Positions 5,272 through 25,677 of a stretch of DNA of 64,000 nt are shown here, in pieces. The notes beneath the pieces were generated by a model. That model made no database searches. It saw only the letters and a list, made by a program, of their open reading frames with translations, and had not been told where the DNA came from. Made by a program: the position numbers and the translations under genes. Origin of the DNA: Nitrospirota bacterium (GTDB taxonomy: Bacteria; Nitrospirota; Thermodesulfovibrionia; Thermodesulfovibrionales; UBA6898); the NCBI GenBank assembly GCA_021783515.1, contig JAJXTV010000003.1, forward strand, positions 1-64,000, given 5' to 3'. The stretch's first letter is position 1, and each line of letters starts with the position of its first letter.

Positions 5272-5937
5272 ATGTCCAAAAAGTATGCATTACTTGTGGA
5301 CCTGAGAAAGTGCGTTGGATGCACATCCTGTCAGGTGAGCTGCAAGATGGAAAATGCTGTCCCGATGGGGCACTTCAGGTCAAAGGTGGATATCGCCGAT
5401 GCCGGAGAATATCCAAAGGCAAAGAGGTATTTTTTCCCGAAAATCTGTAATCAGTGCGATGAGGCGCCATGCATCCCTCCATGTCCTGTGAAAGGGGCTA
5501 CCTACAAAAGGGAAGACGGGGTTGTAATGGTGAACAGGGATTTATGTATCGGCTGTGGCAGGTGTGTGGGCGCCTGTCCCTACGGGGCACGCTTCCTGCA
5601 CCCGCACCTTCAAGTAAAAAACGACCCGGCCAAGTATGCGAAAAATGTCCCCGAAGTAAAGGGCAAAAAGGCGAAGGCTTTGAGGGTGGTGGACAAGTGC
5701 GACTATTGCAGCCACCGGCTTGCCGAAGGCATCGAGGAGCCGGCATGTGTGAGAAACTGTGTTGGGAAAGCAAGATTCTTTGGCGACCTGAGCGACCCCA
5801 ACAGCGAAGTCTCGAAGCTCAAGGCATCTGTAAAAACAGTAGACTGGCATGCCGATTACGGCACGAAGCCGAGGACCACTTTTATCGCGCCTGATAAAGA
5901 GGTCTTTGTTGCGGCTGACGGCCAGATAAACGAGTAA
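5272..5937 (+). CDS. four-cluster Fe-S electron-transfer subunit of molybdoenzyme
   Basis: 221 residues of the DmsB/PsrB/NrfC-like ferredoxin family, carrying electrons to or from the catalytic molybdoprotein. Sixteen cysteines fall in four groups: KCVGCTSCQVSC, CNQCDEAPCIPPC, LCIGCGRCVGAC and CDYC...ACVRNC, as expected for four [4Fe-4S] clusters. It has no signal peptide and is probably exported with the Tat-bearing catalytic subunit. It is the first gene after the sigma-54 promoter, with strong RBS AAAGGAGGAG, and 13 bp precede the catalytic gene. No NrfD/PsrC-type membrane subunit is encoded nearby, so the quinone or cytochrome partner must be another protein. Confidence 0.92.
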   Translation: MSKKYALLVDLRKCVGCTSCQVSCKMENAVPMGHFRSKVDIADAGEYPKAKRYFFPKICNQCDEAPCIPPCPVKGATYKREDGVVMVNRDLCIGCGRCVGACPYGARFLHPHLQVKNDPAKYAKNVPEVKGKKAKALRVVDKCDYCSHRLAEGIEEPACVRNCVGKARFFGDLSDPNSEVSKLKASVKTVDWHADYGTKPRTTFIAPDKEVFVAADGQINE

Positions 5938-5950
5938 GGAGGAGGACGAC

Positions 5951-8797
5951 ATGCAGATATCGAGAAGAGTATTCATGAAATACGCCGGAGCACTGGCCGG
6001 AGTGGCGGCATTGGAAAATTCAGGCCTTTTGTCTCTGAAGCGCCTTTCTCCATCTGAGGCCGAGGCCATGCAGACCGCGATGGGCAAGTATGAGGTGAAA
6101 TACACCGCAGACGCCATGTGCCCGGCGGAATGCGGCATGGAGATGTGGGTAAAAGACGGGAAGATCGCGAAGATTTACGGCAACAAGGCTGTGCCTATGA
6201 ATGTCGGCACCGCCTGCGCGAAAGGCGCTTCAGGCCAGCAGTTGGTTTACTCACCTTACAGGCTGAAATACCCGATGATCCGGGTCGGCGCAAGGGGAGA
6301 GGGGAAATTCAAACGGGTGACATGGGATGAGGCCATTGATCACATTGGGAAAAAACTGACGGAGATCAAGAAAAAATACGGCGCTGAGTCGGTCATGATG
6401 GACTGTGGCGATGTGACAGACAGGGACCAGTATTACAGGCTTTTCTTTGCCTACGGCACTCCCAATTGCGTTGAGCATGGCTCATTATGCGATGTCCCGA
6501 GAAGGCATGGCCCCAAGCTGATGGTCGGCGGCAAGAGGTGGGAGCCGGACATTATGAGACCTCAACTCGTAAGGCAGCCCGACGGCTCCCTGCAAAACGA
6601 CTATTCATACAAGACGAAGCTGATCGTGTATAACGGCTGGAACCCCTTTGTCGCAACGAGAATATTCTATGAGCAGAGGGGCACTGTGGGTGCCAAGGTG
6701 GAGAACGGGTGCAAAGTCGTGGTTATCGATCCGTCCTACTCCAATACCGCGACAGCCGCAGATATGTGGCTGGCGCCGAGGGCTGGCACGGACGGCGACC
6801 TCTTCGGCGCGATGCTCAGATACATCCTTGAGAATGACAACCAGAATGACCCCAACAAAAAATATATAGATTGGAGTTTCAAGAAATATTCCACAGGCTG
6901 GGATGAATTCTCCACGGACTTCAAGGCATGGTGGTCAAAGAAAGACCCCATCAACAACCTGAGCTATTTCAGCCTTGACTGGGCAGTGGACAGAACAGGC
7001 CTTTCAAAGGCGCAAATTGAGGAACTTTCCCATATGTTCGGCATCACCAAACCCGCGGCCCTTGTCTGGGGCATGCAGTCGCCGGGACACCATTACAACG
7101 GCTACTGCGCCTCGATCCTCGGCGTAGCCCTGAACGTCATAACCGGGAACTTCGACGCCCCCGGCGGGGTCATAGACTGCGAACTCGTAAAGTCGGACAA
7201 GGGCGGCTCAGCAACCGGCAAACAGTTCAAGACAAAGAAGGTCAAAAGAATGATAGACGGAAAAGAGGTCGAAGGAGAAGTAGAGCACCTGCACAAAGAC
7301 CTCTTCGGCAGCAAATATCCCGCGTCCTGGGACGACGTGGTGGCCGACTATCCTGACGCGATGGATCACGGCATCGATCTCAAGTATGGACCGTTCAGGG
7401 GGCATAAATACCCCATGAAGGGCTTTATTTTGAGAACGGGAAACGCCGTCGTTACCGGAAGCGCTCCCTGGAGATGGCAGGAGGCGTTGACGGCAAAGGA
7501 CAAGGCCGGCAATTACAACCTCGAACTCATGGTGTTCATCGACACCCTGAACCTCGAAAGCGCTCTTTACGCGGACGTGATCCTGCCGGAGGCAAGCTAC
7601 GCCGAGAGGCAGAGCCTGAGCGATATCTATCCGTCTCATCAGGTTATCTACAATAGGGATGCGGTCATTAAGCCCCTCCACGAATCCAAGAAGCCCACCG
7701 ACATCATGAATCTGCTCGCAAAGAAGCTCAGCGAGCTGGGCGACGCGGACATCAAAGGCGCCGACTTCTGGGAAAAGTACAAGACCGAGGAGGATTTCGT
7801 CAACGAGATGCTCGCGCCGGCGCCGGGCAGGGTCAACGTGGGGACGCCTCTTCCGTATCCGAAATACCCGGAAGGCTATAAGCTCATCGGCACGCCTGAA
7901 TCGCTTGAGAAAGGCGAGGTCAGCATCGACAACGAAAAGAAAGTCGTAAAGGGCAAACCTGTCACCGTGGAATGGCTCAGGAACAACCACGGCGTGGCCA
8001 TATGGCCCATGAGTTGGCAGAGATACAAGAAACACAATGCCGACGAACCGAACAAGGCGTTCCCGAACACCTCCACTAAGCTCATCGAGTTCAGGTTCGA
8101 CTGGACCGACGGCGGGAAGCGGTACGGCGGCTACAAGTCCCACAACGAAAAGATCGAGAAGGCGGGAGGAGACGTGCCCTTGGGGCTCAAGGAGATAGGC
8201 TTTGATAAATTTCCTGCATCCTTCTATTGGTTCGAAACAAAGTGGAACCCGCATACGAATCCCGCGTATAAAAAATACGCTAAGGATTATCCGTTCCAGC
8301 TTATCTGCGGACGCGTGCACCATTCCATGAGCGGCACACAGATGGTCCCCTGGCTCGGGGAGATCAAGGCGGAGGGCACCTGGCAGCCCATGAACAAGGA
8401 GTTCGAGGCGGACGTCCCCGAGGCGATGCCGACGGGCGATGAGCCGATGAAATCCCTGAAGATGAAGTTCAAGCCGAATTCCTATTCGGTCGGCACCATC
8501 TGGATGAACGCCGACGACGCCAAAAGAATGGGCATTAAAAACGGTGATATGGTAGTGGTCGAGAACCCCCTCGGCAAGTCCACGAAGGGCAAGGTGTTCG
8601 CCTCGGGCGGGATGCGGCCCGGAGTCATTAAGATAGGGTTTGCCACGGGCGGCAGGTTCAGTCCCGGAATGGGGCCTGCATACAAGAGCAGAGAATACAC
8701 GCCGAGCCACAGCGACCTTGTTGACCCGTCTGTGTTGAGTCCGATCATGGGCTTCCCCGGATACGCCGACATGATCGTAAAGATCAAGAAAGCATAG
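5951..8797 (+). CDS. Tat-exported molybdopterin oxidoreductase catalytic subunit (DMSO reductase family, Psr/Ttr/Arr-like)
   Basis: 948 residues. The N-terminus has a Tat signal (SRRVFMK then a hydrophobic stretch), so it acts outside the cytoplasm. The cluster-binding region is D54-x2-C57-x3-C61-x27-C89: spacing is that of the usual C-x2-C-x3-C-x27-C site, but the first Cys is Asp. EHGSLCDVPRRHG (C180) is the likely Mo-binding cysteine, as in the NapA/PsrA/ArrA branch. The C-terminal molydop-binding domain includes ICGRVHHSMSG. The length lies between ArrA (~850) and TtrA (~1020). The substrate is not deducible: polysulfide, thiosulfate, tetrathionate, selenate, arsenate/arsenite or antimonate are all possible. 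Linkage to an AioXSR-like sensor set and ArsR/ACR3 genes favours a metalloid oxyanion (inference). It is followed by tatA and a TorD chaperone. Confidence 0.9.
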   Translation: MQISRRVFMKYAGALAGVAALENSGLLSLKRLSPSEAEAMQTAMGKYEVKYTADAMCPAECGMEMWVKDGKIAKIYGNKAVPMNVGTACAKGASGQQLVYSPYRLKYPMIRVGARGEGKFKRVTWDEAIDHIGKKLTEIKKKYGAESVMMDCGDVTDRDQYYRLFFAYGTPNCVEHGSLCDVPRRHGPKLMVGGKRWEPDIMRPQLVRQPDGSLQNDYSYKTKLIVYNGWNPFVATRIFYEQRGTVGAKVENGCKVVVIDPSYSNTATAADMWLAPRAGTDGDLFGAMLRYILENDNQNDPNKKYIDWSFKKYSTGWDEFSTDFKAWWSKKDPINNLSYFSLDWAVDRTGLSKAQIEELSHMFGITKPAALVWGMQSPGHHYNGYCASILGVALNVITGNFDAPGGVIDCELVKSDKGGSATGKQFKTKKVKRMIDGKEVEGEVEHLHKDLFGSKYPASWDDVVADYPDAMDHGIDLKYGPFRGHKYPMKGFILRTGNAVVTGSAPWRWQEALTAKDKAGNYNLELMVFIDTLNLESALYADVILPEASYAERQSLSDIYPSHQVIYNRDAVIKPLHESKKPTDIMNLLAKKLSELGDADIKGADFWEKYKTEEDFVNEMLAPAPGRVNVGTPLPYPKYPEGYKLIGTPESLEKGEVSIDNEKKVVKGKPVTVEWLRNNHGVAIWPMSWQRYKKHNADEPNKAFPNTSTKLIEFRFDWTDGGKRYGGYKSHNEKIEKAGGDVPLGLKEIGFDKFPASFYWFETKWNPHTNPAYKKYAKDYPFQLICGRVHHSMSGTQMVPWLGEIKAEGTWQPMNKEFEADVPEAMPTGDEPMKSLKMKFKPNSYSVGTIWMNADDAKRMGIKNGDMVVVENPLGKSTKGKVFASGGMRPGVIKIGFATGGRFSPGMGPAYKSREYTPSHSDLVDPSVLSPIMGFPGYADMIVKIKKA

Positions 8798-8823
8798 CCC
8801 GGCAATTCCGGCAATTACAGAAT

Positions 8824-8859
8824 GAAGTGGGGCAGTCTCTGCTTTCCCTGCCCCACTTC
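8824..8859 (+). terminator. strong hairpin after the molybdoenzyme gene
   Basis: GAAGTGGGGCAG (8824-8835) pairs perfectly with CTGCCCCACTTC (8848-8859) around a 12-nt loop. There is no T tract. It may be an mRNA-stabilising or partial terminator element that sets higher expression of the two enzyme genes than of the downstream maturation genes. Confidence 0.55.
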
Positions 8860-9015
8860 AAGATGCTCCTCCTCTGGTAAAAGGAGATCGTTTCTTAATG
8901 TTCAGAATTCAGAATTATGAGAAGGCGCTAACGTCAAGTTTGGGGCGCTGATTAGCAAGGCAACGATGATTATCAATATTGAATCGCCATTGAGTCGATT
9001 CGGAAAGAGGTGGAT

Positions 9016-9177
9016 ATGTTCGGACTGGGATTGCCGGAGATCGTGATTATATTGTCAGTTGTATTGCTCATCTTTGGCCCGAAGCAGCTTCCGCAACTCG
9101 GCAGAAGTCTGGGTGAGGCGATTTCAGGGTTCAAAAAGTCGTTGACATCCGAAAGCGACGAACTGGTGAAGAAATGA
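9016..9177 (+). CDS. tatA: Sec-independent translocase subunit TatA/TatE
   Basis: A 53-residue protein: MFGLGLPEIVIIL, one membrane helix, the conserved FGPKQLPQLGRSLGEAISGFKK hinge and amphipathic helix (quoted in part: FGPKQLPQLGRSLG), and a short charged tail. This is the pore-forming component of the twin-arginine export system. RBS AGAGG precedes the ATG. Placed between the Tat-dependent enzyme and its chaperone, it probably supplies a dedicated or extra TatA; TatC is not in this window. Confidence 0.9.
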   Translation: MFGLGLPEIVIILSVVLLIFGPKQLPQLGRSLGEAISGFKKSLTSESDELVKK

Positions 9178-9238
9178 ATCGCCACTCTTGGAAGCGGTAA
9201 GGGAATAATAAGTTATGGGATATAATGGAGGATTATAA

Positions 9239-9844
9239 GTGATAGACGAACTCAGGGAAGAACTTTCTTTGTTTAATCTTCTGAGGCAGGTGTTTTTGAA
9301 GGAGCCGACGAGAGAGTTTATCGAAGACATCTCGAAAGTTGATTTACCCCCGGAGGCCGATGACGAGATATCCTACGGCCTGAAACTGATGCTCGATGCG
9401 GTCCGCAGGAACAGCCATAGGCTGGGCGAGTGGACCGAAGAGCTTGCTATCGAATATGCGCGTCTTTTCGTGGGACCGAAAAACCCTCCTGCAATACCCT
9501 ACGCATCCTTCTATCTTTCCGAATCCCGTTCGCTCATGACGGATGAGACCATAGACGTGAGGAAAAGATACCTCGATGCGGGCATGGCGGTCAAAGAATT
9601 ATACAGTATTCCCGATGATCATATCGGAATAGAGCTGGAATTCATCTACGACCTTACCAGGAGGATGATAGAGCTATTCGAAAAGGGAGAGCGCGAAGAG
9701 GCGTCCCGGCTTTTCGAGATCAGGGGCGATTTTATAAGGGGACATATGGCATTGTGGGTTCCCTTTTTTGTTGAAAAAGTCATAGAGGCGTCCGGGGATG
9801 ATTTTTACAAAGGCGCTTCATACATATTGAAAGGTTGTATCTGA
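9239..9844 (+). CDS. TorD/DmsD-family molybdoenzyme chaperone
   Basis: 201 residues, mostly alpha-helical. It holds the family features EYARLFVGP and PYASFYLSESRSLM (the ExxxLF and PY-S-Y signatures) and IELEFIYDL. These proteins bind the Tat signal of a molybdoenzyme and hold export back until the cofactor is inserted. The start is GTG at 9239 with GGAGG about 8 nt upstream. The likely client is the catalytic subunit encoded at 5951-8797. Eight bases separate it from the FmdE-like gene. Confidence 0.88.
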   Translation: MIDELREELSLFNLLRQVFLKEPTREFIEDISKVDLPPEADDEISYGLKLMLDAVRRNSHRLGEWTEELAIEYARLFVGPKNPPAIPYASFYLSESRSLMTDETIDVRKRYLDAGMAVKELYSIPDDHIGIELEFIYDLTRRMIELFEKGEREEASRLFEIRGDFIRGHMALWVPFFVEKVIEASGDDFYKGASYILKGCI

Positions 9845-9851
9845 AGGAGAC

Positions 9852-10457
9852 ATGACGAACCTATTTGACTTTGAGCAACTCCTCAATGAGTCCTCACGAA
9901 TTCACGGCCATCTCTGCCCAGGCCAGGTGCTCGGCATCAAAATGTCGATACTTGGGCTGCGCGAGGCAGAAATTAGAGATCCCAAAGGGAAAGACCGTAA
10001 GAGTATTATCGTCTTTGTCGAGATGGACCGTTGCGCAACCGATGCGGTCCAGTCGGTCACCGGCTGCAGCCTCGGCCACAGGACAATGAAGTTCATGGAC
10101 TACGGCAAGATGGCAGCAACATTTCTGAACCTTAAGACAGGAAGAGCGGTTCGGGTTATCGCGAGAGATGATTCACGACAGAAGGCCAAGGCGTATTTTC
10201 CTGAGATCGAAAACAAATATGAGGCCCAGCTTGAGGCGTACAAGATTATGCCTGATAACGAGCTTTTTGATGTGATGGAGGTGCAGGTGAAGGTCAACCC
10301 GGAAGACATGCCCGGAAGGCCGTTGCGAAGGGTCAAGTGCGATTCCTGTGGTGAGTACGTACAGGACATGAGGGAGGTCGAAATTGACGGAAAAATCCTC
10401 TGCAGGCCCTGTGCAGATACCGGCTATTATTTACCTGTCGGGCAGGATATTTTTTGA
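9852..10457 (+). CDS. FmdE-domain protein with C-terminal zinc finger
   Basis: 201 residues. The N-terminal FmdE domain (about 1-140) has HGHLCPGQVLGIKMS and CATDAVQSVTGCSLGHR, the conserved metal/cofactor-site residues of the family first seen in formylmethanofuran dehydrogenase operons. The C-terminal part has CDSCGEYV...CRPC, a zinc-ribbon pair. FmdE proteins commonly sit with Mo or W enzymes, yet their biochemical role is not settled; a part in molybdopterin enzyme maturation fits this operon. RBS GAAGGAG precedes the ATG. Confidence 0.85.
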   Translation: MTNLFDFEQLLNESSRIHGHLCPGQVLGIKMSILGLREAEIRDPKGKDRKSIIVFVEMDRCATDAVQSVTGCSLGHRTMKFMDYGKMAATFLNLKTGRAVRVIARDDSRQKAKAYFPEIENKYEAQLEAYKIMPDNELFDVMEVQVKVNPEDMPGRPLRRVKCDSCGEYVQDMREVEIDGKILCRPCADTGYYLPVGQDIF

Positions 10458-10498
10458 TCCGCGTTATGCAGCTATTCCATAACGGATGAAAGGCGATC

Positions 10499-10828
10499 AT
10501 GAAGATTAAATCAAAGCTCTGGATCGAGGTTGACGGAAAGCCGGTCTTCGGCAGAGGCCGCAGGTTTCTGCTTGAGGCTATTGACAGGAACGGCTCCATC
10601 AACCAGGCCGCAAAGGAGATCAACATCTCCTACCGGAAGGCCTGGGGATACATCAAGGCCATGGAAGAAAGGCTTGGATTCAGGCTTATTGAACGGCAGA
10701 CCGGCGGCAGAAACGGCGGCGGGGCGATCATTACGGATGACGCAAGAGCCTTCTTGAAGAAATACGAGTTACTTGAAAAAGGAATACAGGAGCTTGTTGA
10801 TGAGAGATTCAGGGATACCTTCAGATAA
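10499..10828 (+). CDS. ModE-type HTH regulator (DNA-binding domain only)
   Basis: 109 residues matching the N-terminal winged-helix of ModE: GRGRRFLLEAIDRNGSINQA, then YRKAWGYIKAMEERLGF (recognition helix) and the RQTGGRNGGGA loop. The molybdate-binding MOP domains of full-length ModE are missing, so any molybdate sensing would need another partner. It overlaps the permease start by 29 bp and probably regulates molybdate uptake or this operon (inference). Confidence 0.88.
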   Translation: MKIKSKLWIEVDGKPVFGRGRRFLLEAIDRNGSINQAAKEINISYRKAWGYIKAMEERLGFRLIERQTGGRNGGGAIITDDARAFLKKYELLEKGIQELVDERFRDTFR

Positions 10829-11933
10829 TTTTAGAAAGCTCGCATGGGACATTTCAGGCGCCTTTGGCGACATTGGCGTCCTGCTTCCTATAGCTATTGC
10901 ACTGATTGTTAAAAACGGCTTTAATCCCACAGCGCTTTTCTTGATGGCAGGGCTTTTTTATATAATATCCGCTTATTATTTCAGGATCACAATGCCTGTC
11001 CAGCCGCTCAAGGCAATGTCCGCCATAGCAATAGCATCAGGATTGAATTTTGAGGTGATTAATGCTGCAGGTATAGCTATGGGTATCATTCTTATTCTCA
11101 TTTCGTTGACCGGCCTGAGTGTGAAACTCGGGAGTTTTTTCCCTGTGTCAGTAATACGGGGTATACAGCTTGGTTTGGGGATGATGCTTGTCAGATCGGC
11201 TTCAGGTCTTATAAGAGCAGACATCCTGATCGCGGTCGTTGCAGGGCTACTCCTTATGGCAAATATTGTGCTGATAAGGAAAATACCGCCGCTCATCCCT
11301 ATCTTAATACTCGGGGCAGTATTCTCGATAAAAGGGCTTACCTCTCTTGCAATCGGACCAGTGGCATTAAGCCCGGCATTGCCTGATGCAGACAGCCTTT
11401 GGAGGGGCTTTACTCTTCTTGTTCTTCCCCAGATTGCGCTGACTTTTGGCAATGCTATAGTCGCAACAGAGGCAACCGGCAAATTGCTTTACGGACAAAA
11501 AGCAGAGCGACTTAGCCTTCAGAGCGTTCCCTTGAGCATGGGTTTTGCTAATATCACGTCGGGGTTTTTCGGAGGCGCTCCTATGTGTCATGGATGCGGG
11601 GGACTGACAGCACACAGCAAATTTGGTGCAACAAGCGAGAGATCAGGCTATATAATAGGCGGCCTACTGATCGTCCTCGCCCTTCTATTTGGTAGGTCAG
11701 CCCTATCCATTATTTCGGCCTTCCCTTTGGGGATTTTGGGTGTTCTGCTATGTTATGTTGGAATACAACATTCGCTGTTTATAAGGGACATTATCGCCGA
11801 TAAGAAAGCTGTGTTTGTTGCATTAACAGTTGCTGTTTCAGGATTTTTGACAAATAACCTTACCGCCGGTTTTGTCCTCGGATTAGGGGTTCATTATAGC
11901 TTCTCGATGATGAAAAATACTTTGAGAGTTTAG
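10800..11933 (+). CDS. MOT1/SulP-like molybdate (or sulfate) permease
   Basis: 377 residues with about 10-11 membrane helices. The motifs WDISGAFGDIGVLLPIAIAL near the N-terminus (quoted GDIGVLLPIAIAL) and ITMPVQPLKAMSAIAIASG are hallmarks of the MOT1 branch of the SulP superfamily, which includes eukaryotic and bacterial high-affinity molybdate transporters. The start at 10800 was chosen because AGGAG lies 8 nt upstream; a longer frame begins 27 bp earlier. The overlap with a ModE-like gene and neighbouring Moco genes supports molybdate rather than sulfate. Confidence 0.88.
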   Translation: MRDSGIPSDNFRKLAWDISGAFGDIGVLLPIAIALIVKNGFNPTALFLMAGLFYIISAYYFRITMPVQPLKAMSAIAIASGLNFEVINAAGIAMGIILILISLTGLSVKLGSFFPVSVIRGIQLGLGMMLVRSASGLIRADILIAVVAGLLLMANIVLIRKIPPLIPILILGAVFSIKGLTSLAIGPVALSPALPDADSLWRGFTLLVLPQIALTFGNAIVATEATGKLLYGQKAERLSLQSVPLSMGFANITSGFFGGAPMCHGCGGLTAHSKFGATSERSGYIIGGLLIVLALLFGRSALSIISAFPLGILGVLLCYVGIQHSLFIRDIIADKKAVFVALTVAVSGFLTNNLTAGFVLGLGVHYSFSMMKNTLRV

Positions 11934-11941
11934 GAGGTTTT

Positions 11942-13012
11942 ATGTGCGATATTCAAAGGCCTGATACAAAAGACAGGTTAGACGGAAAGACAATTCCGGT
12001 AAAAGAAGCCATAGGCACTGTACTTGCCCATGACATAACAGAGATACGTCCTGGAGAGTTTAAAGGCAGGGCATTTAGGAAAGGGCATATCGTCAGGCAG
12101 GAAGATGTCTGCCACCTCCAGAGGCTTGGCAAGGAACATCTCTTTGTTCTTAATATCGCAGAAGATGAGATGCACGAAGACGACGCAGCGCATGCCCTTG
12201 CAAATGCCCTTATGGGCGAGGGAGTGAAGATAAAGGGAGAGCCAAAGGAAGGCAAGATAAATATCGTCGCAGAGAAGGACGGGCTGCTCAAGATCAATAA
12301 AGAGGCGCTTCTGGCCTTCAATGTGCTTGGCGATGTAATGTGCGCGACGCTTCACAGCAACACGGTCGTGAAACAGGGCCGGACAGTTGCTGCAACAAGG
12401 GCAATCCCTCTGATCGTCAAAAAAGACATTGTGCAGGCTGCGGTGAAGATAGGAGAGCAAGCAGGAAAGATCATTCAGGTTAAAGAGATCAAAAAGCCAA
12501 AGGCCGGTGTGGTCATCACCGGCAATGAAGTCTACTATGGAAGGATTAAGGACGCCTTCGCGCCGGTCATTACGAAGAAGATCGAGGAATTCGGCGGAGA
12601 GCTTGTGGGCGTCTATTATGCGCCGGATGATAAAGGGTTTATCGTGGACAGGCTCCGGGAGTTGTTGAATGCCGGAGCCGACCTCCTCATCACCACGGGC
12701 GGCATGTCGGTGGACCCTGATGACGTAACACGGTTCGCGATCCGGGAACTGGGCGCGGACGGCATCACCTACGGTTCGGCGGTTCTTCCCGGCGCGATGT
12801 TCCTTGTTGCCTATCTCGGTGATATCCCTATTCTCGGTATTCCGGCCTGTGGCATGTATGCAAAAACGACTATTTTTGACCTGATCCTTCCGAGGGTTCT
12901 TGCCGGTGAGAAAGTGGGCCGAAAAGAGCTCTCAGAACTCGGTCACGGCGGGCTTTGCATGAAATGTGATGAGTGCAGATATCCGGTCTGTCCCTTCGGG
13001 AAACGGGGATAG
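11942..13012 (+). CDS. MoeA/MogA-like molybdopterin-binding protein with Cys-rich tail
   Basis: 356 residues. The C-terminal half (about 170-335) is a MoCF_biosynth (MoaB/Mog) domain with GVVITGNEVYYG and LLITTGGMSVDPDDVTR, the molybdopterin-binding signatures. The N-terminal half resembles the shortened MoeA-like form rather than full MoeA. Its likely role is adenylyl-molybdopterin processing or metal insertion. The end is unusual: LCMKCDECRYPVCPFGK, five cysteines in a probable metal-binding tail. The same CRYPxCPFGK motif recurs in a separate 18-codon ORF at 15208-15264. RBS AGGAGG. Confidence 0.85.
   Translation: MCDIQRPDTKDRLDGKTIPVKEAIGTVLAHDITEIRPGEFKGRAFRKGHIVRQEDVCHLQRLGKEHLFVLNIAEDEMHEDDAAHALANALMGEGVKIKGEPKEGKINIVAEKDGLLKINKEALLAFNVLGDVMCATLHSNTVVKQGRTVAATRAIPLIVKKDIVQAAVKIGEQAGKIIQVKEIKKPKAGVVITGNEVYYGRIKDAFAPVITKKIEEFGGELVGVYYAPDDKGFIVDRLRELLNAGADLLITTGGMSVDPDDVTRFAIRELGADGITYGSAVLPGAMFLVAYLGDIPILGIPACGMYAKTTIFDLILPRVLAGEKVGRKELSELGHGGLCMKCDECRYPVCPFGKRG
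12974..13002 (+). repeat. 29-bp direct repeat, copy 1
   Basis: A 29-nt stretch encoding CRYPVCPFGK at the 3' end of the MoeA-like gene matches 15229-15257 at 27 of 29 positions. Together the two copies bracket the mobB-moaA and moaD-moaE genes. Confidence 0.8.
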
Positions 13013-14524
13013 GTGTATTCCTGGACGTCCATGAACATGGTATCTTTTGTCGCCGCTGGTTCAAATAGCGGAAAGACTACGCTCATAGAAAAGCTTATTC
13101 CTCTGCTGAAGGTTCGTGGCCTCACTGTCGCCGTAGTGAAGCATGCATCGAAAGGGTTTGATCCTGAACAACCAGGCAAGGATTCATGGCGTTTCCGTGA
13201 AGCGGGTGCTGACACGGTGGCGGTGGTCGGTCCGGACGGGACGGTTGTCATGCGGCGAGGAGAGCGTGACATGGTTGTGGCGGATCTCGGCAATATCCTC
13301 GGTACGTACGATGTCGTGCTCCGCGAGGGGTTCAAGAACGCCGGAGGCGACCGAATAGAGGTTTTCCGGGCGGGCGTTTCGGGATCCAGGCCCCTCTGTC
13401 TTGATGACCCGTCATATATCGCCCTCGTCAGCGACAGGAAGTTGGATGTTGCCCTGCAGCAGTTCAACCTGAATGACGCGGAGAGCATTGCCGCGTTTAT
13501 CGTGGAGAAGACGAACATGACTTTGTCGAACCGTAGCACGGAAACGCTGAAAGACTCCTTCAACCGGCAGATCGACTATCTTCGTATATCCATTACGGAC
13601 TCATGCAATCTGAAGTGCATCTATTGCATGCCTGAAAAGGGCTTGAAGCGGTTCGATCAATCAGATATCCTGACCACCGATGAGATCATCGGGATCGTGC
13701 GCATTGCGGCCAAATACGGCGTGAAAAAAGTCCGATTGACCGGTGGCGAACCACTGCTGCGGAAAGATATCATTCCGCTCATTTCGGGGATCAAGAGCAT
13801 GGGGATCAGAGACCTGAGTATTACTACGAACGGCCAGCGGTTAGCTGAAATGGCGCAGCAGCTAAAAAGGGCCGGTCTCGACAGGGTGAATATCAGCCTT
13901 GATACGCTGATCGCCGACCGGTACCGGAAGATCACCAGAGGCGGCGAGATCGACCGGGTATGGGAAGGAGTACGGGAGTCCGAACGGGCTGGGCTATCGC
14001 CGGTAAAAATCAATATGGTGCCTGTGCGCGGGATCAATGACGATGAGGTATCCCGCTTCGCGGCACTGACGATGTACAAAGATATTCACGTGCGATTTAT
14101 TGAGTTCATGCCCATTGGAAACCGTGAAACGTGGAAGCCCGATGCATATCTGGGCAAGGACGAGATCATGGCCCGTGCGGCATCTACGGGAAAGCTGGTC
14201 CTACTGCCATTCAAAGGCGGCGGTCCTTCACGAAATTACCGGATAGAGGGCGCGCCGGGCATGATCGGCTTCATCAGCGCAATAAGCGACTGCTTTTGCG
14301 GTTCCTGCAACAGGCTGCGCCTCACGGCTGTCGGCAAGTTCAGACCCTGCCTTTTTTCGGAAATAACAGTGGACATCAAAACGCCTCTCAGGAACGGCGC
14401 GGCCGATGAAGAACTCGAAGCTCTTTATCGAGACGCCGTACTGTCCAAACCCGCCCGGCATGCACTCCAGGAACGCGCTTTATTCGCTCCCTCGTTGTCT
14501 CCCATGTCGCAGATCGGAGGATAG
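13013..14524 (+). CDS. moaA: MobB-MoaA fusion (GTP-binding Moco adaptor plus GTP 3',8-cyclase)
   Basis: 503 residues in two modules. Residues ~8-165 form a MobB GTPase: P-loop AAGSNSGKTTLIEKL and the KHASKGFDPE region; MobB helps convert Mo-molybdopterin to the guanine dinucleotide form. Residues ~175-503 form MoaA, a radical-SAM enzyme that makes the first pterin intermediate: SAM cluster CNLKCIYC, LTGGEPLLR, second cluster CFCGSCNRLRL...C, and the essential C-terminal Gly-Gly (IGG end). The fusion joins the first and last steps of Moco synthesis. The start is GTG at 13013, one base after the previous stop; ATG 13031 is an alternative. moaC is not in the window. Confidence 0.92.
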   Translation: MYSWTSMNMVSFVAAGSNSGKTTLIEKLIPLLKVRGLTVAVVKHASKGFDPEQPGKDSWRFREAGADTVAVVGPDGTVVMRRGERDMVVADLGNILGTYDVVLREGFKNAGGDRIEVFRAGVSGSRPLCLDDPSYIALVSDRKLDVALQQFNLNDAESIAAFIVEKTNMTLSNRSTETLKDSFNRQIDYLRISITDSCNLKCIYCMPEKGLKRFDQSDILTTDEIIGIVRIAAKYGVKKVRLTGGEPLLRKDIIPLISGIKSMGIRDLSITTNGQRLAEMAQQLKRAGLDRVNISLDTLIADRYRKITRGGEIDRVWEGVRESERAGLSPVKINMVPVRGINDDEVSRFAALTMYKDIHVRFIEFMPIGNRETWKPDAYLGKDEIMARAASTGKLVLLPFKGGGPSRNYRIEGAPGMIGFISAISDCFCGSCNRLRLTAVGKFRPCLFSEITVDIKTPLRNGAADEELEALYRDAVLSKPARHALQERALFAPSLSPMSQIGG

Positions 14525-14536
14525 GGCTGAAAGATC

Positions 14537-15211
14537 ATGGTAACCGTCAAACTCTTCGCTATTTTGCAAGACCATGCGGGTGTCTCTGAGTTATCACTTG
14601 ATATGCGGGAGGGCACTGTGGCAGCCCTTCTTGAGCAGGTGATGCAGAAATGTCCGTCGCTGTCTCCTCTGCTTTCCCCGGAACGGCTGATGATCGCGGT
14701 AAATGAGGAGTTCGTCAGGAAAGACGCGCTGGTCAGGGACGGAGACGAGGTCGCGCTTATGCCGCCGTTTTCAGGCGGGTCCGGCCTCTTCGGCATCGTC
14801 CGGATTCAAGAGGAACCGTTCTCCCTTGACAGAGAGGTGGAAAGGCTAAAACAATCATCGTCTTCCATCGGTGGGATAGTAACTTTCCTCGGGACCACGA
14901 GGGATATCTCGCGGGATAAGCAGGTAGCGAAGCTCGAATTCGAGCATTATCCCGGGATGGCCGAGAAGATGCTTTCCGCGATACGGGACCGGGCAATCAT
15001 GGAATACGGAGTGATTGACGCGACGATTATCCACCGGGTGGGAACGCTGCCGGTGGGAGAGAACATTGTGCTGATTGCCGTCGCATCCGAACACCGCGAC
15101 GAGGCGTTCAGGGCCTGCCGTTTCTGTATCGATGAATTAAAGCGGATTACGCCTATCTGGAAGAAGGAATCAACACTGTACGGTGAAGTATGGGTAGAGG
15201 AACATCCGTGA
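14537..15211 (+). CDS. moaX: MoaD-MoaE fusion (MoaX-type molybdopterin synthase)
   Basis: 224 residues. Residues 1-81 are MoaD, a ubiquitin-like sulfur carrier ending in FSGG. Residues ~85-224 are MoaE, with GGIVTFLGTTRD, FEHYPGMAEKML and the catalytic Lys region PIWKKE. Because MoaD must expose its C-terminal Gly-Gly for thiocarboxylation, the fusion should be cleaved after GG, as known for mycobacterial MoaX. It follows mobB-moaA by 12 bp. Its stop overlaps a tiny ORF by GTGA. Confidence 0.93.
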   Translation: MVTVKLFAILQDHAGVSELSLDMREGTVAALLEQVMQKCPSLSPLLSPERLMIAVNEEFVRKDALVRDGDEVALMPPFSGGSGLFGIVRIQEEPFSLDREVERLKQSSSSIGGIVTFLGTTRDISRDKQVAKLEFEHYPGMAEKMLSAIRDRAIMEYGVIDATIIHRVGTLPVGENIVLIAVASEHRDEAFRACRFCIDELKRITPIWKKESTLYGEVWVEEHP

Positions 15212-15264
15212 TAATAAAAAAAAAGCCTTGCAGATATCCGGCCTGTCCCTTCGGCAAGGAATAG
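15208..15264 (+). CDS. possible 18-aa Cys-motif microprotein
   Basis: GTG at 15208 overlaps the moaX stop (GTGA) and has GAGG 7 nt upstream. The frame reads V/M-IIKKKPCRYPACPFGKE and stops at 15264. The motif CRYPxCPFGK equals the tail of the MoeA-like protein at 11942-13012. Either it is a real coupled microprotein or it is a leftover of a duplicated gene end (the DNA is 27/29 identical). It is too short to decide from sequence alone. Confidence 0.4.
   Translation: MIIKKKPCRYPACPFGKE
15229..15257 (+). repeat. 29-bp direct repeat, copy 2
   Basis: The second copy of the repeat at 12974-13002, with two mismatches. It encodes CRYPACPFGK in the 18-codon ORF. Confidence 0.8.
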
Positions 15265-15282
15265 TGTAAAATTTATTCATCT

Positions 15283-16197
15283 ATGGTGAAGCATCTTGCT
15301 TGTCTTATCACAATTACGCTATGCATTGCCGGTTGCGGAGAGAGTGAAGTATCCAAAAAGGTCAGTCTCGAAAAAAGGGCTCCGCAAGAGGAAACTATCG
15401 TGCGGCAGGCGGATGCGCGTTCCCTGAAATTCGGTTTCGATCTAAGGCTCAGTCCAAAAGAAGACACCAAGATATATCTGCCCTTCCTGCGCTATCTTGA
15501 GCAGAACACCGGAAACAGATTCTCCATCAAGTTCACGGAAAAGTATGAAAGCACTGTTGAAAATCTCGGCAAGGGAATTACACATTTTGCAGCTCTCGGA
15601 CCGGTAACCTGCGTTCTGGCAAAGAGGCAGTATGGTTCAAGCTGTCTTGTGATGGGCCTGAACGAGGACGGCAGGCCCGAGTACCGCTCGGTCATCTTTA
15701 CCAGGAGCGACAGTTCTGTGAATACGCTTAAGGATTTAAAGGGCAAGACCTTTGCATTCGGGGACAAGTATTCGACACAGGGCCATGTGATCCCCCGCAA
15801 GATGCTGGAAGACGCAGGGATTTTCATAACGGACCTTAAGGGCCATGCCTTTACCGGCTCTCATGCCTTGACTGCCCGGGCCATCCTGAACGGCGAGTAT
15901 GATGCCGGTTCGCTGCAGGACAACATGGCGAAGAGACTGGTGTCGGAAGGAAAGATCAAGATCATTGCGACATCAAAACCCTACCCGAGCAGCCTCATAT
16001 GCGCTAATAAAGATGTCCACCTGCCCATCATAGCAAGCGTCAGAACTGCGCTTCTTTCTTTTGACCCCAAAGGGAAACATTCGGGGATTCTCGTGGATTG
16101 GGACAAGACAGAGATGCCGAAAGGTTTTTCGGACTATCGCGAGGCTGATCTGAAAGAAATAGAAATTCTGGCCGCTAAATACGGTCTCATTAAATGA
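15283..16197 (+). CDS. PhnD-like substrate-binding lipoprotein (AioX/ArxX-like sensor component)
   Basis: 304 residues. A lipoprotein signal (LCIAGC, lipid-modified Cys 18) is followed by a PhnD-type periplasmic binding fold, with typical segments THFAALGPVTCVLAKR, VNTLKDLKGKTFAFGD and ARAILNGEYDAGSLQ. No ABC transporter genes are adjacent. Instead it overlaps a histidine kinase by ATGA, which is the layout of AioX-AioS-AioR and ArxXSR, where the PhnD-like protein binds arsenite and signals through the kinase. It probably senses an oxyanion or its product. The ligand is not readable; cysteines in GPVTC and SSC could serve in a thiophilic ligand site (inference). Confidence 0.85.
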   Translation: MVKHLACLITITLCIAGCGESEVSKKVSLEKRAPQEETIVRQADARSLKFGFDLRLSPKEDTKIYLPFLRYLEQNTGNRFSIKFTEKYESTVENLGKGITHFAALGPVTCVLAKRQYGSSCLVMGLNEDGRPEYRSVIFTRSDSSVNTLKDLKGKTFAFGDKYSTQGHVIPRKMLEDAGIFITDLKGHAFTGSHALTARAILNGEYDAGSLQDNMAKRLVSEGKIKIIATSKPYPSSLICANKDVHLPIIASVRTALLSFDPKGKHSGILVDWDKTEMPKGFSDYREADLKEIEILAAKYGLIK

Positions 16198-17576
16198 AGC
16201 TCTGGCTGAAGATAGTCCTGCTCAATATACTTCTCGTTCTGAGCCTTGGAGTATTGCTCGGTCTTGCAGTCCGGAGCGTTGTGATCGACTCTCTACGGCA
16301 GGAGTTGTCGAGGCAGGGCGAATCTATCGCCCGAAACCTTTCCGAAAGGATCGCGGACTCAGTGCTTTTGCAAGACATCTACAGGACGCAGGAGGCTGTT
16401 GATGATCTCCTCAGGACAGAGCGCGATGTGGAATATATCTTTATCCTTGACGACAACGGCGAGCTCTTTGCCCACACGTTTAAGAACGGCCATCCTCCGG
16501 GCATTTTGCGCTGGAACCCCCTTTATGACAGGCCGACTTCCGTTCAACTGCTCAACACTGAACGGGGCTTCGTCCGCGACATCGGCGTCAAGGTATTCGC
16601 GGGCATGAACCCTGAGGTCCATATAGGGCTGCGGGAGGAACGTATAATGCAGACGCTCGCGAGGATCAGATACATTGTTATCACCCTGACGATAGGTGTG
16701 ACGCTCACGGGCGCAGCATTCGCCTGTTTATTCAGCAGATTTATCACAAAGCCTCTCAATGCGCTTGTCGGATTCGCCGACCTTCTTTCGAAAGGCGAAT
16801 TCGGCAAGCGCCTCGATGTGAAATCAAGAGACGAGATTGGAGAGCTTTCAAACACCTTCAACCACCTCTCCCTCGAACTTGAAAGCTATAGAAAGAAGAT
16901 GGAAGACTCCTACAAGCAGATGCTCAGGACCGAGAAGTTGTCCGCACTGGGGCGTCTTTCTGCAGGACTTGCTCATGAGATAAGGAATCCTCTGACCTCT
17001 ATTAAAGTGCTCTTCAAGGCGTTCAAGGACACCCCTTCTCTTACCAGGGAGGACATGGAGGTGGTGCTTTCCGCAGCTGAGCAGATGGACGAGATCCTTT
17101 CGAGATTTCTCCGGTTTGCACGGAGCGACGAATTCAATCCCTCGGAGGTATACATCAACCTTGTGATAAAAGAGGTCGTGAATCTCACCCAGCATCAGTC
17201 GAAAAATCAGCGCGTCACCGTGGAAATGGATCTGACGAAACTGCCTCCGGTCAAGGCGGACCGGGGCCTTTTGGAACAGGCGATTATGAACCTTGTGCTG
17301 AATGCGATTGAAGCAATGCCTGAAGGCGGAACCCTGAGGGTGTCAAGCAGAAACAACAATGGTTACTACATTGTTTCCGTCTCCGACACGGGCCAGGGCA
17401 TTCCTGAGGAGATACGGGGAAGAATATTCGACCCGTTTTTCACGACAAAAGGAGACGGCACGGGCCTTGGTCTTTCGATTGTATACAATATCGTAAATAT
17501 CCACGGCGGCGATATCAGCCTTGAAAGTAATGGAGGAGGAACTACATTCACCATGAAGATCCCTGTACATGCATGA
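16194..17576 (+). CDS. membrane sensor histidine kinase
   Basis: 460 residues. TM1 is at ~6-27, a periplasmic domain of about 130 residues follows, then TM2 at ~160-182, HAMP (FITKPLNALVGFADLLSKG region), HisKA with phosphorylated H261 in LAHEIRNPLTS, and HATPase_c with NLVLNAIEAMPEGG, DTGQGIPEE and GTGLGLSIVYNI. It belongs to the NtrB/AtoS-like group that pairs with sigma-54 activators. ATGA overlaps at both ends couple it to the PhnD-like sensor and the response regulator, so the three form one signalling unit. Confidence 0.93.
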   Translation: MKLWLKIVLLNILLVLSLGVLLGLAVRSVVIDSLRQELSRQGESIARNLSERIADSVLLQDIYRTQEAVDDLLRTERDVEYIFILDDNGELFAHTFKNGHPPGILRWNPLYDRPTSVQLLNTERGFVRDIGVKVFAGMNPEVHIGLREERIMQTLARIRYIVITLTIGVTLTGAAFACLFSRFITKPLNALVGFADLLSKGEFGKRLDVKSRDEIGELSNTFNHLSLELESYRKKMEDSYKQMLRTEKLSALGRLSAGLAHEIRNPLTSIKVLFKAFKDTPSLTREDMEVVLSAAEQMDEILSRFLRFARSDEFNPSEVYINLVIKEVVNLTQHQSKNQRVTVEMDLTKLPPVKADRGLLEQAIMNLVLNAIEAMPEGGTLRVSSRNNNGYYIVSVSDTGQGIPEEIRGRIFDPFFTTKGDGTGLGLSIVYNIVNIHGGDISLESNGGGTTFTMKIPVHA

Positions 17577-18958
17577 GCACCATACTCGTCGTAGATGACC
17601 AGAAGACAGTCTGCTATTCGCTTCAGCGGCTGCTTCAGGCTGAGGGCTATGATGTTGTAACCGAGACCAACGGAGAAAAAGCCCTGGCGCTTATCGCCGG
17701 AGCAGCGCCCGATCTCGTTATTATGGATGTCAGAATGCCGGAGATTGACGGCTTGGAGGCATTGGGCAGGATCAAGGAGGCCCATCCGGAAGTGCAGGTG
17801 ATCATGATGACCGCCTTCAGCACGACCGAAAAGGCGATACAGGCCATGAAGCTCGGCGCCTATGATTATCTTCTCAAACCCTTCGACAACGACGAACTGA
17901 TTGTAAGGGTCAGGGGCGCCATCAAGGCGAAAGAATTGGTGAAAGAAGTGGTCACCTTTGATCAAACAGAGGATTTCACAAAAGGGGAGACGATTATAGG
18001 CAAAAGCCCCGTGATGCTCGATATCTATAAACAGATCGGGAGGGTAGCTCCTACGGATGCCACTGTTTTTATCAGGGGGGAAAGCGGCACAGGCAAGGAA
18101 CTGGTTGCGCGGGCCGTCTACCATTACAGCAAACGGGCCAACAGGCCTTTCCTCGCCATTAATTGCGCGGCCATTCCCGAGCAGCTTTTGGAGAGCGAGC
18201 TTTTCGGACATGAGCGGGGAGCGTTCACCGGCGCTGAATTCAGACGCATCGGAAAATGCGAGCAGTGCGATGGCGGCACGCTCTTTCTCGATGAGATCGG
18301 CGATATGACCCTGTCCCTTCAGGCGAAAGTCTTACGCTTTATCCAGGACGGCACGTTCCAGCGGATCGGCGGAAACGAAACGATAAAGGCTGATGTGAGG
18401 CTTATCGCCGCGACGAACAAAGATATTGAAAGTATGGTGGAGAAAGGAACATTCAGGGAAGATCTTTTCTATCGAATTAACGTAGTAACGATAGCTCTTC
18501 CGCCCTTGCGGGAAAGGAGAGGGGACATCGACGATCTTGTGCAGTATTTCATCGGAAAATTCAACAGAAAGTTTGGAAAGAAGATCAAGGGAATTACCTC
18601 AGATGTATTTGATCACTTCAAAAGCTCTGCGTGGCCCGGCAATGTCAGAGAACTCGAAAACTCTATCCAGAAGGCGATGGTCTTCTGCAATAATGATTAT
18701 CTCTCTCTTGCATGCTGTGATTCTCTAAAACCGGAAAAAAAAAGCTGTGCCACCCTTGAAGATGCGATCACTCATCTTATTGATTCTGCCTTCAAAGAAG
18801 GATGTCAGGAAAAATTCCAGGACATTATTGCAGCAATAGAGAAAAATATGGTCAGAAAGGCGCTGGAGCTGACGAAAGGCAATCAGGTCCAGGCCGCGAA
18901 ACTGCTCGGCATATCGAGAAATACATTGAGGAAGAAGCTGGAAGAAGATTTTCGTTAG
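17573..18958 (+). CDS. NtrC-family sigma-54-dependent response regulator
   Basis: 461 residues: a receiver domain with phosphoacceptor D52 (LVIMDVRMPE), an AAA+ domain with Walker A GESGTGKE (169-176), the sigma-54 contact loop GAFTGA (216-221), LFLDEIGD Walker B and an R-finger region, then a Fis-type HTH ending QAAKLLGISRNTLRKKL. It activates RpoN promoters when phosphorylated by the upstream kinase. The best visible target is the -24/-12 promoter at 5207-5223, 12 kb upstream, driving the molybdoenzyme genes. Confidence 0.95.
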   Translation: MSTILVVDDQKTVCYSLQRLLQAEGYDVVTETNGEKALALIAGAAPDLVIMDVRMPEIDGLEALGRIKEAHPEVQVIMMTAFSTTEKAIQAMKLGAYDYLLKPFDNDELIVRVRGAIKAKELVKEVVTFDQTEDFTKGETIIGKSPVMLDIYKQIGRVAPTDATVFIRGESGTGKELVARAVYHYSKRANRPFLAINCAAIPEQLLESELFGHERGAFTGAEFRRIGKCEQCDGGTLFLDEIGDMTLSLQAKVLRFIQDGTFQRIGGNETIKADVRLIAATNKDIESMVEKGTFREDLFYRINVVTIALPPLRERRGDIDDLVQYFIGKFNRKFGKKIKGITSDVFDHFKSSAWPGNVRELENSIQKAMVFCNNDYLSLACCDSLKPEKKSCATLEDAITHLIDSAFKEGCQEKFQDIIAAIEKNMVRKALELTKGNQVQAAKLLGISRNTLRKKLEEDFR

Positions 18959-24610: not shown

Positions 24611-24651
24611 ATGTTTAAAGATATATAATTTATTTGCGGAGGGGAATCAAA

Positions 24652-25677
24652 ATGTCAAAAATGAACAAAGAATCCGAAGTCACGCTCGGCAGGTTCGAGA
24701 AATATATCTATCTCTGGATTGTCTTGTGCGGAGTCGCCGGTCTGCTCCTTGGTAAACTCTTCCCGCGAATTGTGCACGACGTCAATGCGATTACCGTCAG
24801 CGGCGTTTCCATCCCCATCGCCGTCCTCATGTTCTTCCTCATGTACCCCGCCATGGCTAAGGTCAGGCTGGAGGAAGTATCCCATGCCGTCAGAAACATC
24901 GGTCCCACGATTATGACCCTTATCGCAAACTGGCTCATCGCGCCGCCGTTGATGGTGTTTCTGGCATGGCTGTTTCTGGACAACCCCGACTTCAAGGCCG
25001 GAACGATCCTCCTGGGCATTTCGCCCTGTACCGGAATGGTGCTCTTCTGGATCTCCTTTGCTCGCGGCAATGTAACTCAAGGCGTCGTAATCACTGCAAT
25101 CAACGCTCTTTCGACTCTCTTGCTTTATGCTCCCTTTGCGGCGTTTTATCTCGGCGTGGGAGGAGTGCCTGTACCTTTTTCGCTGGTTGCGGTAAGCGTA
25201 ATGTTGTTCGTCGGCCTTCCCTTGCTTGCAGGCCAGGTTTCCAAGCGGCTCTTGATCCGTCGCAAGGGCGAACAATGGTTTACAGACCGTTACATGCCAG
25301 TGATGAGCAACCTTGCGACAGGGTCTTTGCTGGGAATGCTTGTGCTTCTATTTTCATCGGAAGGCCAGAAGATATTAGCGTATCCCCTGACAGTTGCTTT
25401 GATTGCTGTTCCGGTTTTTTTGCACTTTGTGGTCATGGTGGCGGGAACTCATCTGACCGCGTGGCTGCTTCGCTATCGCTATGAGGACGCAGCAATGGCA
25501 ACGCTCATCGGCTCAAGCACCCAATTTGAGGTCGCCATAGGCACGGCAATGGTCGTCTTCGGCCTTGGCTCGGGCGCCGCACTGGCAACGGTTGTGGGAC
25601 CGCTGATCGAAGTGCCTGTGATGGTGACTGCGACAAAATTGCTGAGAAAGACCCGACCTTATTTTTCACAAAAATAG
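24652..25677 (+). CDS. ACR3-family arsenite efflux permease (variant)
   Basis: 341 residues with ten predicted membrane helices. Start ATG 24652 with RBS GGAGGGG. ACR3 landmarks: LMYPAMAKVRLEE, GISPCTGMVLFWISFARG (the substrate-site Cys), and the final VVGPLIEVPVMV. Classical ACR3 has SNNFELA in helix 9; here it is SSTQFEVAI, so substrate preference may differ (arsenite, antimonite or another). The protein exports the trivalent oxyanion using the proton-motive force. Next to a broken PhnD-like gene and after a redox cytochrome, it extends the metalloid theme of the locus. Confidence 0.85.
   Translation: MSKMNKESEVTLGRFEKYIYLWIVLCGVAGLLLGKLFPRIVHDVNAITVSGVSIPIAVLMFFLMYPAMAKVRLEEVSHAVRNIGPTIMTLIANWLIAPPLMVFLAWLFLDNPDFKAGTILLGISPCTGMVLFWISFARGNVTQGVVITAINALSTLLLYAPFAAFYLGVGGVPVPFSLVAVSVMLFVGLPLLAGQVSKRLLIRRKGEQWFTDRYMPVMSNLATGSLLGMLVLLFSSEGQKILAYPLTVALIAVPVFLHFVVMVAGTHLTAWLLRYRYEDAAMATLIGSSTQFEVAIGTAMVVFGLGSGAALATVVGPLIEVPVMVTATKLLRKTRPYFSQK

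Follow-up and report, generated by a model that had tools for sequence, protein, structure and literature searches.

A short cysteine-containing sequence occurs on both sides of the mobB-moaA and moaX genes in the stretch of 64,000 nucleotides analyzed here (the window). It is the conserved tail of a MoCF gene, and its second copy is most likely a leftover scrap of such a gene, not a new microprotein. The arrangement probably goes back to a single event: DNA resembling that of another family of the phylum, f23, would have entered the resident MoCF gene by recombination and stranded the old tail as copy 2. The features are listed in Table 1.

Table 1. Features of the MoCF–moaX–SBP region, in window positions
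Feature	Position	Strand	Basis or remark
MoCF-domain (MoeA-like) protein, 356 aa, ending CMKCDECRYPVCPFGKRG; apparent mosaic gene	11942..13012	+	PF00994, E 2e-21
Putative acquired tract: MoCF 3' half, mobB-moaA fusion, moaX	12467..15211	+	right boundary placed at the moaX stop or shortly behind it
Repeat copy 1	12974..13002	+	intact MoCF tail CRYPVCPFGK
MobB-MoaA fusion, 503 codons	13013..14524	+	PF03205 MobB, 13-141; TIGR02666 moaA, 179-503, E 9e-107
moaX (MoaD-MoaE fusion)	14537..15211	+	PF02597, PF02391
18-codon frame, GTG to TAG, reading VIIKKKPCRYPACPFGKE	15208..15264	+	considered to be open by chance across the relic
Probable relic 3' end of an earlier MoCF gene: last 10-11 codons and stop	15229..15264	+	copy 2 = 15229-15257
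SBP (PtxB/ArrX-like), histidine kinase and NtrC-type regulator	15283..18958	+	SBP PF12974; kinase and regulator models
SBP gene, periplasmic binding protein	15283-16197	+	PF12974; PDB matches PtxB, ArrX

The repeat search of the window recovered both copies, at 12974–13002 and 15229–15257, with the identity of 27 of 29 nt given in the earlier note. No further copy was found in the window by a scan that allowed three mismatches, and the same scan of 100 dinucleotide shuffles gave a mean of 0.00 matches. A third copy of the motif was present elsewhere in the genome (C24:108972-109000), where a second MoCF paralog ends in it. The earlier note had mentioned neither this copy nor the MobB-MoaA and MoaD-MoaE fusions. 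The 18-codon frame that it described does exist directly after moaX, and its GTG start overlaps the TGA stop of moaX.

Copy 1 lies in the tail of the MoCF protein. The tail pattern, CxxCxxC[RN]YPxCPFGK, was kept in relatives across the phylum: much of the order has this terminus, and it recurs in other classes. Eighteen aligned MoCF proteins, 59–84% identical to that of the window, were invariant at residues C339, C342, C345, P348, C350, P351, F352, G353 and K354. The C-x2-C-x2-C-x4-C spacing suggests that the tail might bind a metal or an Fe-S cluster. An AlphaFold2 model was confident for the body of the protein, but tail residues 335–356 fell below pLDDT 50, so the model was uninformative on the tail.

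Residues 18–335 could be aligned to archaeal MoeA (PDB 1uz5). The window protein differed from the MoeA family (1uz5, 1fc5) in its added C-terminal cysteine tail. It scored 20–50 bits against MoeA equivalog cut-offs of 440–560 and matched at the level of the MoCF domain only. Literature searches on the gene neighborhood returned nothing specific on the tail motif. The alignment draws attention to an uncharacterized cysteine tail, strongly conserved, on a MoeA-like protein of wide occurrence. At one related locus (L035, G002:C12), the MoCF match contained one in-frame TGA, which may reflect an assembly error, a pseudogene or another cause.

The position of copy 2 was compared with that of MoCF in related genomes. 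In four relatives (G058, G080, G038 and G089), an intact MoCF gene stood directly upstream of the orthologous SBP gene, and in the first three of these the gap between the MoCF end and the SBP match was 17–35 nt. At that place the window has moaX, followed by the last 10–11 MoCF codons. These codons matched the tails of the intact MoCF genes in the relatives.

A fifth relative, G007, gave a different upstream context. Its gene order was torD, relic and SBP, and its SBP was 88% identical to that of the window. The sequence between torD and the SBP gene (CCGGTCTGTCCCTTCGGCAAGGAATAGTGTAAAATTTAT) was equal to window positions 15238–15276 at 38 of 39 nt, a match that covered the last MoCF codons, the TAG stop and 12 noncoding nucleotides beyond it. 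The G007 copy had lost the CRY residues and contained no in-frame ATG, GTG or TTG. Upstream of the relic, the two sequences were wholly different.

The same MoCF end thus stood beside the same SBP gene behind two different upstream genes, and a remnant is the simplest reading. The sequence matched the end of a gene of which the intact copy holds this position in relatives, and neither a start codon nor a reading frame belonging to it was conserved. We interpreted copy 2 as what is left of the 3' end of a MoCF gene, one that would once have stood directly before the SBP/kinase/regulator operon, an assignment that gene order and alignment support well.

MoCF remnants of other lengths were also found. 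The retained tail was about 10 codons in the window genome (G000), 8 in G007, 18 in G011 and about 50 in G055. In G011 (C212, L070; 2228–2548), the last 18 MoCF codons were joined out of frame to the first 90 or so codons of a phosphonate-type binding-protein gene, an apparent deletion junction. In G055 (C50, L138; about 6026–6172), the 50 or so C-terminal codons lay directly before moaA inside a long contig, and the remainder of the gene was missing. An attachment-site model, with site-specific integration into the 3' end of MoCF, was considered and rejected. There was no integrase between the two copies, and the differing breakpoints in the four genomes argue against a site-specific process.

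The genes between the two copies resembled those of another family. A search at E<=1e-25 detected no fused moaX in the other 175 genomes of the order. The gene was present across f23 at 60–76% identity and also in other groups of the phylum, and the best matches (74–76%) were all in f23. The name moaX is used in mycobacteria for a fused MoaD-MoaE. The window gene has the same two-domain fusion, but sits in a molybdoenzyme/sensor cluster and has its nearest relatives in f23.

The window moaA was 79% identical to those of two f23 genomes, G218 (L114) and G238 (L115), versus at most 64% within the order, where the other matches started at the MoaA part and lacked a fused MobB. In G218, a MoCF gene ending in FGKLG directly preceded this closest-type moaA. 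The order in G238 was modE-MOT1-MoCF-mobB-moaA with moaX farther along, that is, the genes of the window block but interrupted. MobB and MoaA in a single frame were seen only in the window, whereas G238 keeps mobB and moaA separate. No genome was found with MoCF, the mobB-moaA fusion and moaX together as an exact donor block. Judged by these identities, the mobB-moaA and moaX genes look to have been acquired from a distant relative.

Similarity also changed along the MoCF gene itself. Residues 1–180 were generally closer to the own genus (G002, G003), and residues 181–300 were closer to f23. Over residues 181–240, protein identity was 90, 88 and 87% to f23 members versus 77 and 70% to members of the genus. 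The best single breakpoint lay at 12430–12466; to its left 89% of the sites were genus-like, to its right 33%. Only 13 of 5000 shuffles were equally strong, in a test based on only 40 informative nucleotide sites and dependent on the reference groups chosen.

By these comparisons the window MoCF is a mosaic, with an apparent switch from genus-like to f23-like near 12.43–12.55 kb. The final 60 or so codons were not clearly f23-like, and a second breakpoint was not significant. The extra '-xG' after FGK in the window protein was common to f23 MoCF proteins (G218, G238 C190 and G205). The GC content of the tract was 0.54–0.56 versus 0.46–0.52 in most flanking genes (mopB, 0.55). Mean GC rose near 12.5 kb and fell near 15.0–15.3 kb.

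These patterns probably reflect the following event. The donor DNA would have come from an f23-like bacterium and carried its own MoCF 3' half together with mobB, moaA and moaX. The left crossover would have taken place within homologous MoCF sequence in the 12.43–12.55 kb interval, and the right end would have been attached, with little or no homology, immediately before the final ten codons of the resident MoCF. A full-length MoCF, tail included, would thereby be rebuilt, and the cofactor genes would be added behind it. The old tail would be stranded before the SBP gene, by chance inside a short open frame.

Such a process would be homology-facilitated illegitimate recombination (HFIR), which is known from natural competence and conjugation (PMC3240628). 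One HFIR event would explain the mosaic MoCF, the foreign genes and the remnant together. As in the published cases, one end appears to lie in homologous sequence, the other may lie at a point of little homology, and foreign genes would have been gained. The homologous crossover on one side was indicated by the mosaic MoCF, within its limited number of sites. The present case differs in being deduced from sequence patterns across species, with no exact donor and with an uncertain right breakpoint.

That the mobB-moaA/moaX pair had been inserted was one of two alternatives proposed in the earlier note, and this idea largely held, given the pre-insertion order in the four relatives, genes foreign to the order and a mosaic MoCF. 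The mechanism that it suggested, recombination between two pre-existing 29-bp repeats, is probably wrong. The 29-bp repeat looks instead like a product of the insertion, because the incoming DNA would have brought its own MoCF 3' half while the last resident codons stayed. The small repeat, the gene order and the mosaic gene together form a readable scar, which shows how a set of molybdenum-cofactor genes probably came to lie next to a respiratory molybdoenzyme and the sensor operon that goes with it.

In what order the events took place is uncertain, because moaX of G238 also precedes an SBP of the window's type. The moaX-SBP neighborhood may therefore be older than the event in the window. 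As to the right junction, the spacers of the window and G238 had GCC(T)TGCAG in common and could be weakly aligned, and 3 of 500 shuffles gave an equally good alignment. This likeness may represent microhomology, a decayed relic or chance.

The main rival to the single event is a history in two steps, which we consider unlikely. The relic would be old, formed when MoCF and SBP were joined behind torD as in G007, and the fmdE-modE-MOT1-MoCF-mobB-moaA-moaX block would have been inserted later between torD and the relic. The direct succession of torD and relic in G007 fits such an intermediate, as does the torD that precedes the SBP gene, with no relic, in G063. The oxidoreductase genes, moreover, lie downstream of the regulators in most relatives and upstream in the window and G007. 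However, the relic in the window is longer than that of G007 and cannot stem from the shortened form, and the mosaic MoCF would need a separate event.

In the relic and leader (window 15238–15276; L203, G007:C379), G000 and G007 resembled each other more closely than the flanking DNA suggests, the neighboring genes being 76–91% identical, and this counts against the single-event reading. Such a close likeness would be expected if the relic and the following bases were kept as a cis element in the leader of the SBP gene, an explanation that we find improbable. The near-complete identity compares with 0.87–0.91 for the nearest genes and 0.57 for the spacer between mopB and torD, but at those backgrounds its chance probability was 0.03–0.09, and other SBP orthologs carry different leaders. 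That the stranded tail still does something at all, either as the sensor-operon leader or as a peptide of 18 residues mimicking the MoCF tail, is quite improbable.

Very improbable is a functional cysteine-containing microprotein that is translationally coupled to moaX and works with the MoCF tail, for example as a sulfur or metal carrier to the cofactor machinery. The frame is open, its GTG overlaps the TGA, GAGGA lies 7 nt upstream, 9 of the 10 tail residues are kept in the motif, and the relic recurs almost unchanged in G007. However, the G007 copy lacks C-R-Y and any ATG, GTG or TTG start, and the motif was absent downstream of all nine f23 moaX copies examined. The first two cysteines of CxxCxxCx4C are also missing from the 18-codon frame.

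The apparent translation signals were accounted for by moaX itself. Its last codons, GTA GAG GAA CAT CCG TGA (VEEHP*), supply both what looks like a ribosome-binding site and the GTGA overlap. A VEEHP* or VEDHP* end was conserved in the nine f23 copies, and in several of them GAG GAA CAT CCG TGA alone yields GAGGA and GTGA with no motif following. The small frame was not conserved in the related loci.

The other alternative in the earlier note was that the motif serves as a protein domain and, separately, as a microprotein. The first half stood, as a conserved four-cysteine MoCF terminus found phylum-wide. The stand-alone microprotein is not supported, lacking conservation after the nine f23 moaX genes and in G007, and the only other short frames found were truncated MoCF ends. 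A motif family of small proteins was likewise rejected, since the closed short frames were differently truncated MoCF ends (63 distinct tails in the fetched loci, from a pattern search that sees tails only and is silent on the relative frequency of 3' and 5' remnants). Recurrence of a motif in a short, coupled ORF does not in itself point to a microprotein.

The operon behind the relic resembled known sensing modules. ArrXSR and AioXSR are arsenic sensing modules (PMC5908839). Like these, the window has a binding protein, a kinase and a regulator in a row beside a molybdoenzyme, and in G058 an ACR3 transporter adjoins the operon. The SBP matched ArrX at E 3e-14 and AioX at about 5e-5. It differed in being closer to PtxB (2e-22), so that the phosphite protein, and not ArrX or AioX, was the closest characterized relative among these PDB matches. 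The oxidoreductase was closer to PhsA than to ArrA.

Window positions 5272–18958 and 24634–25677 together encode an Fe-S protein, a molybdoenzyme (best model PhsA, also ArrA-like), a TorD chaperone, the PtxB/ArrX-like sensor module and an ACR3-like transporter. This set is possibly an arsenic-related respiratory cluster.
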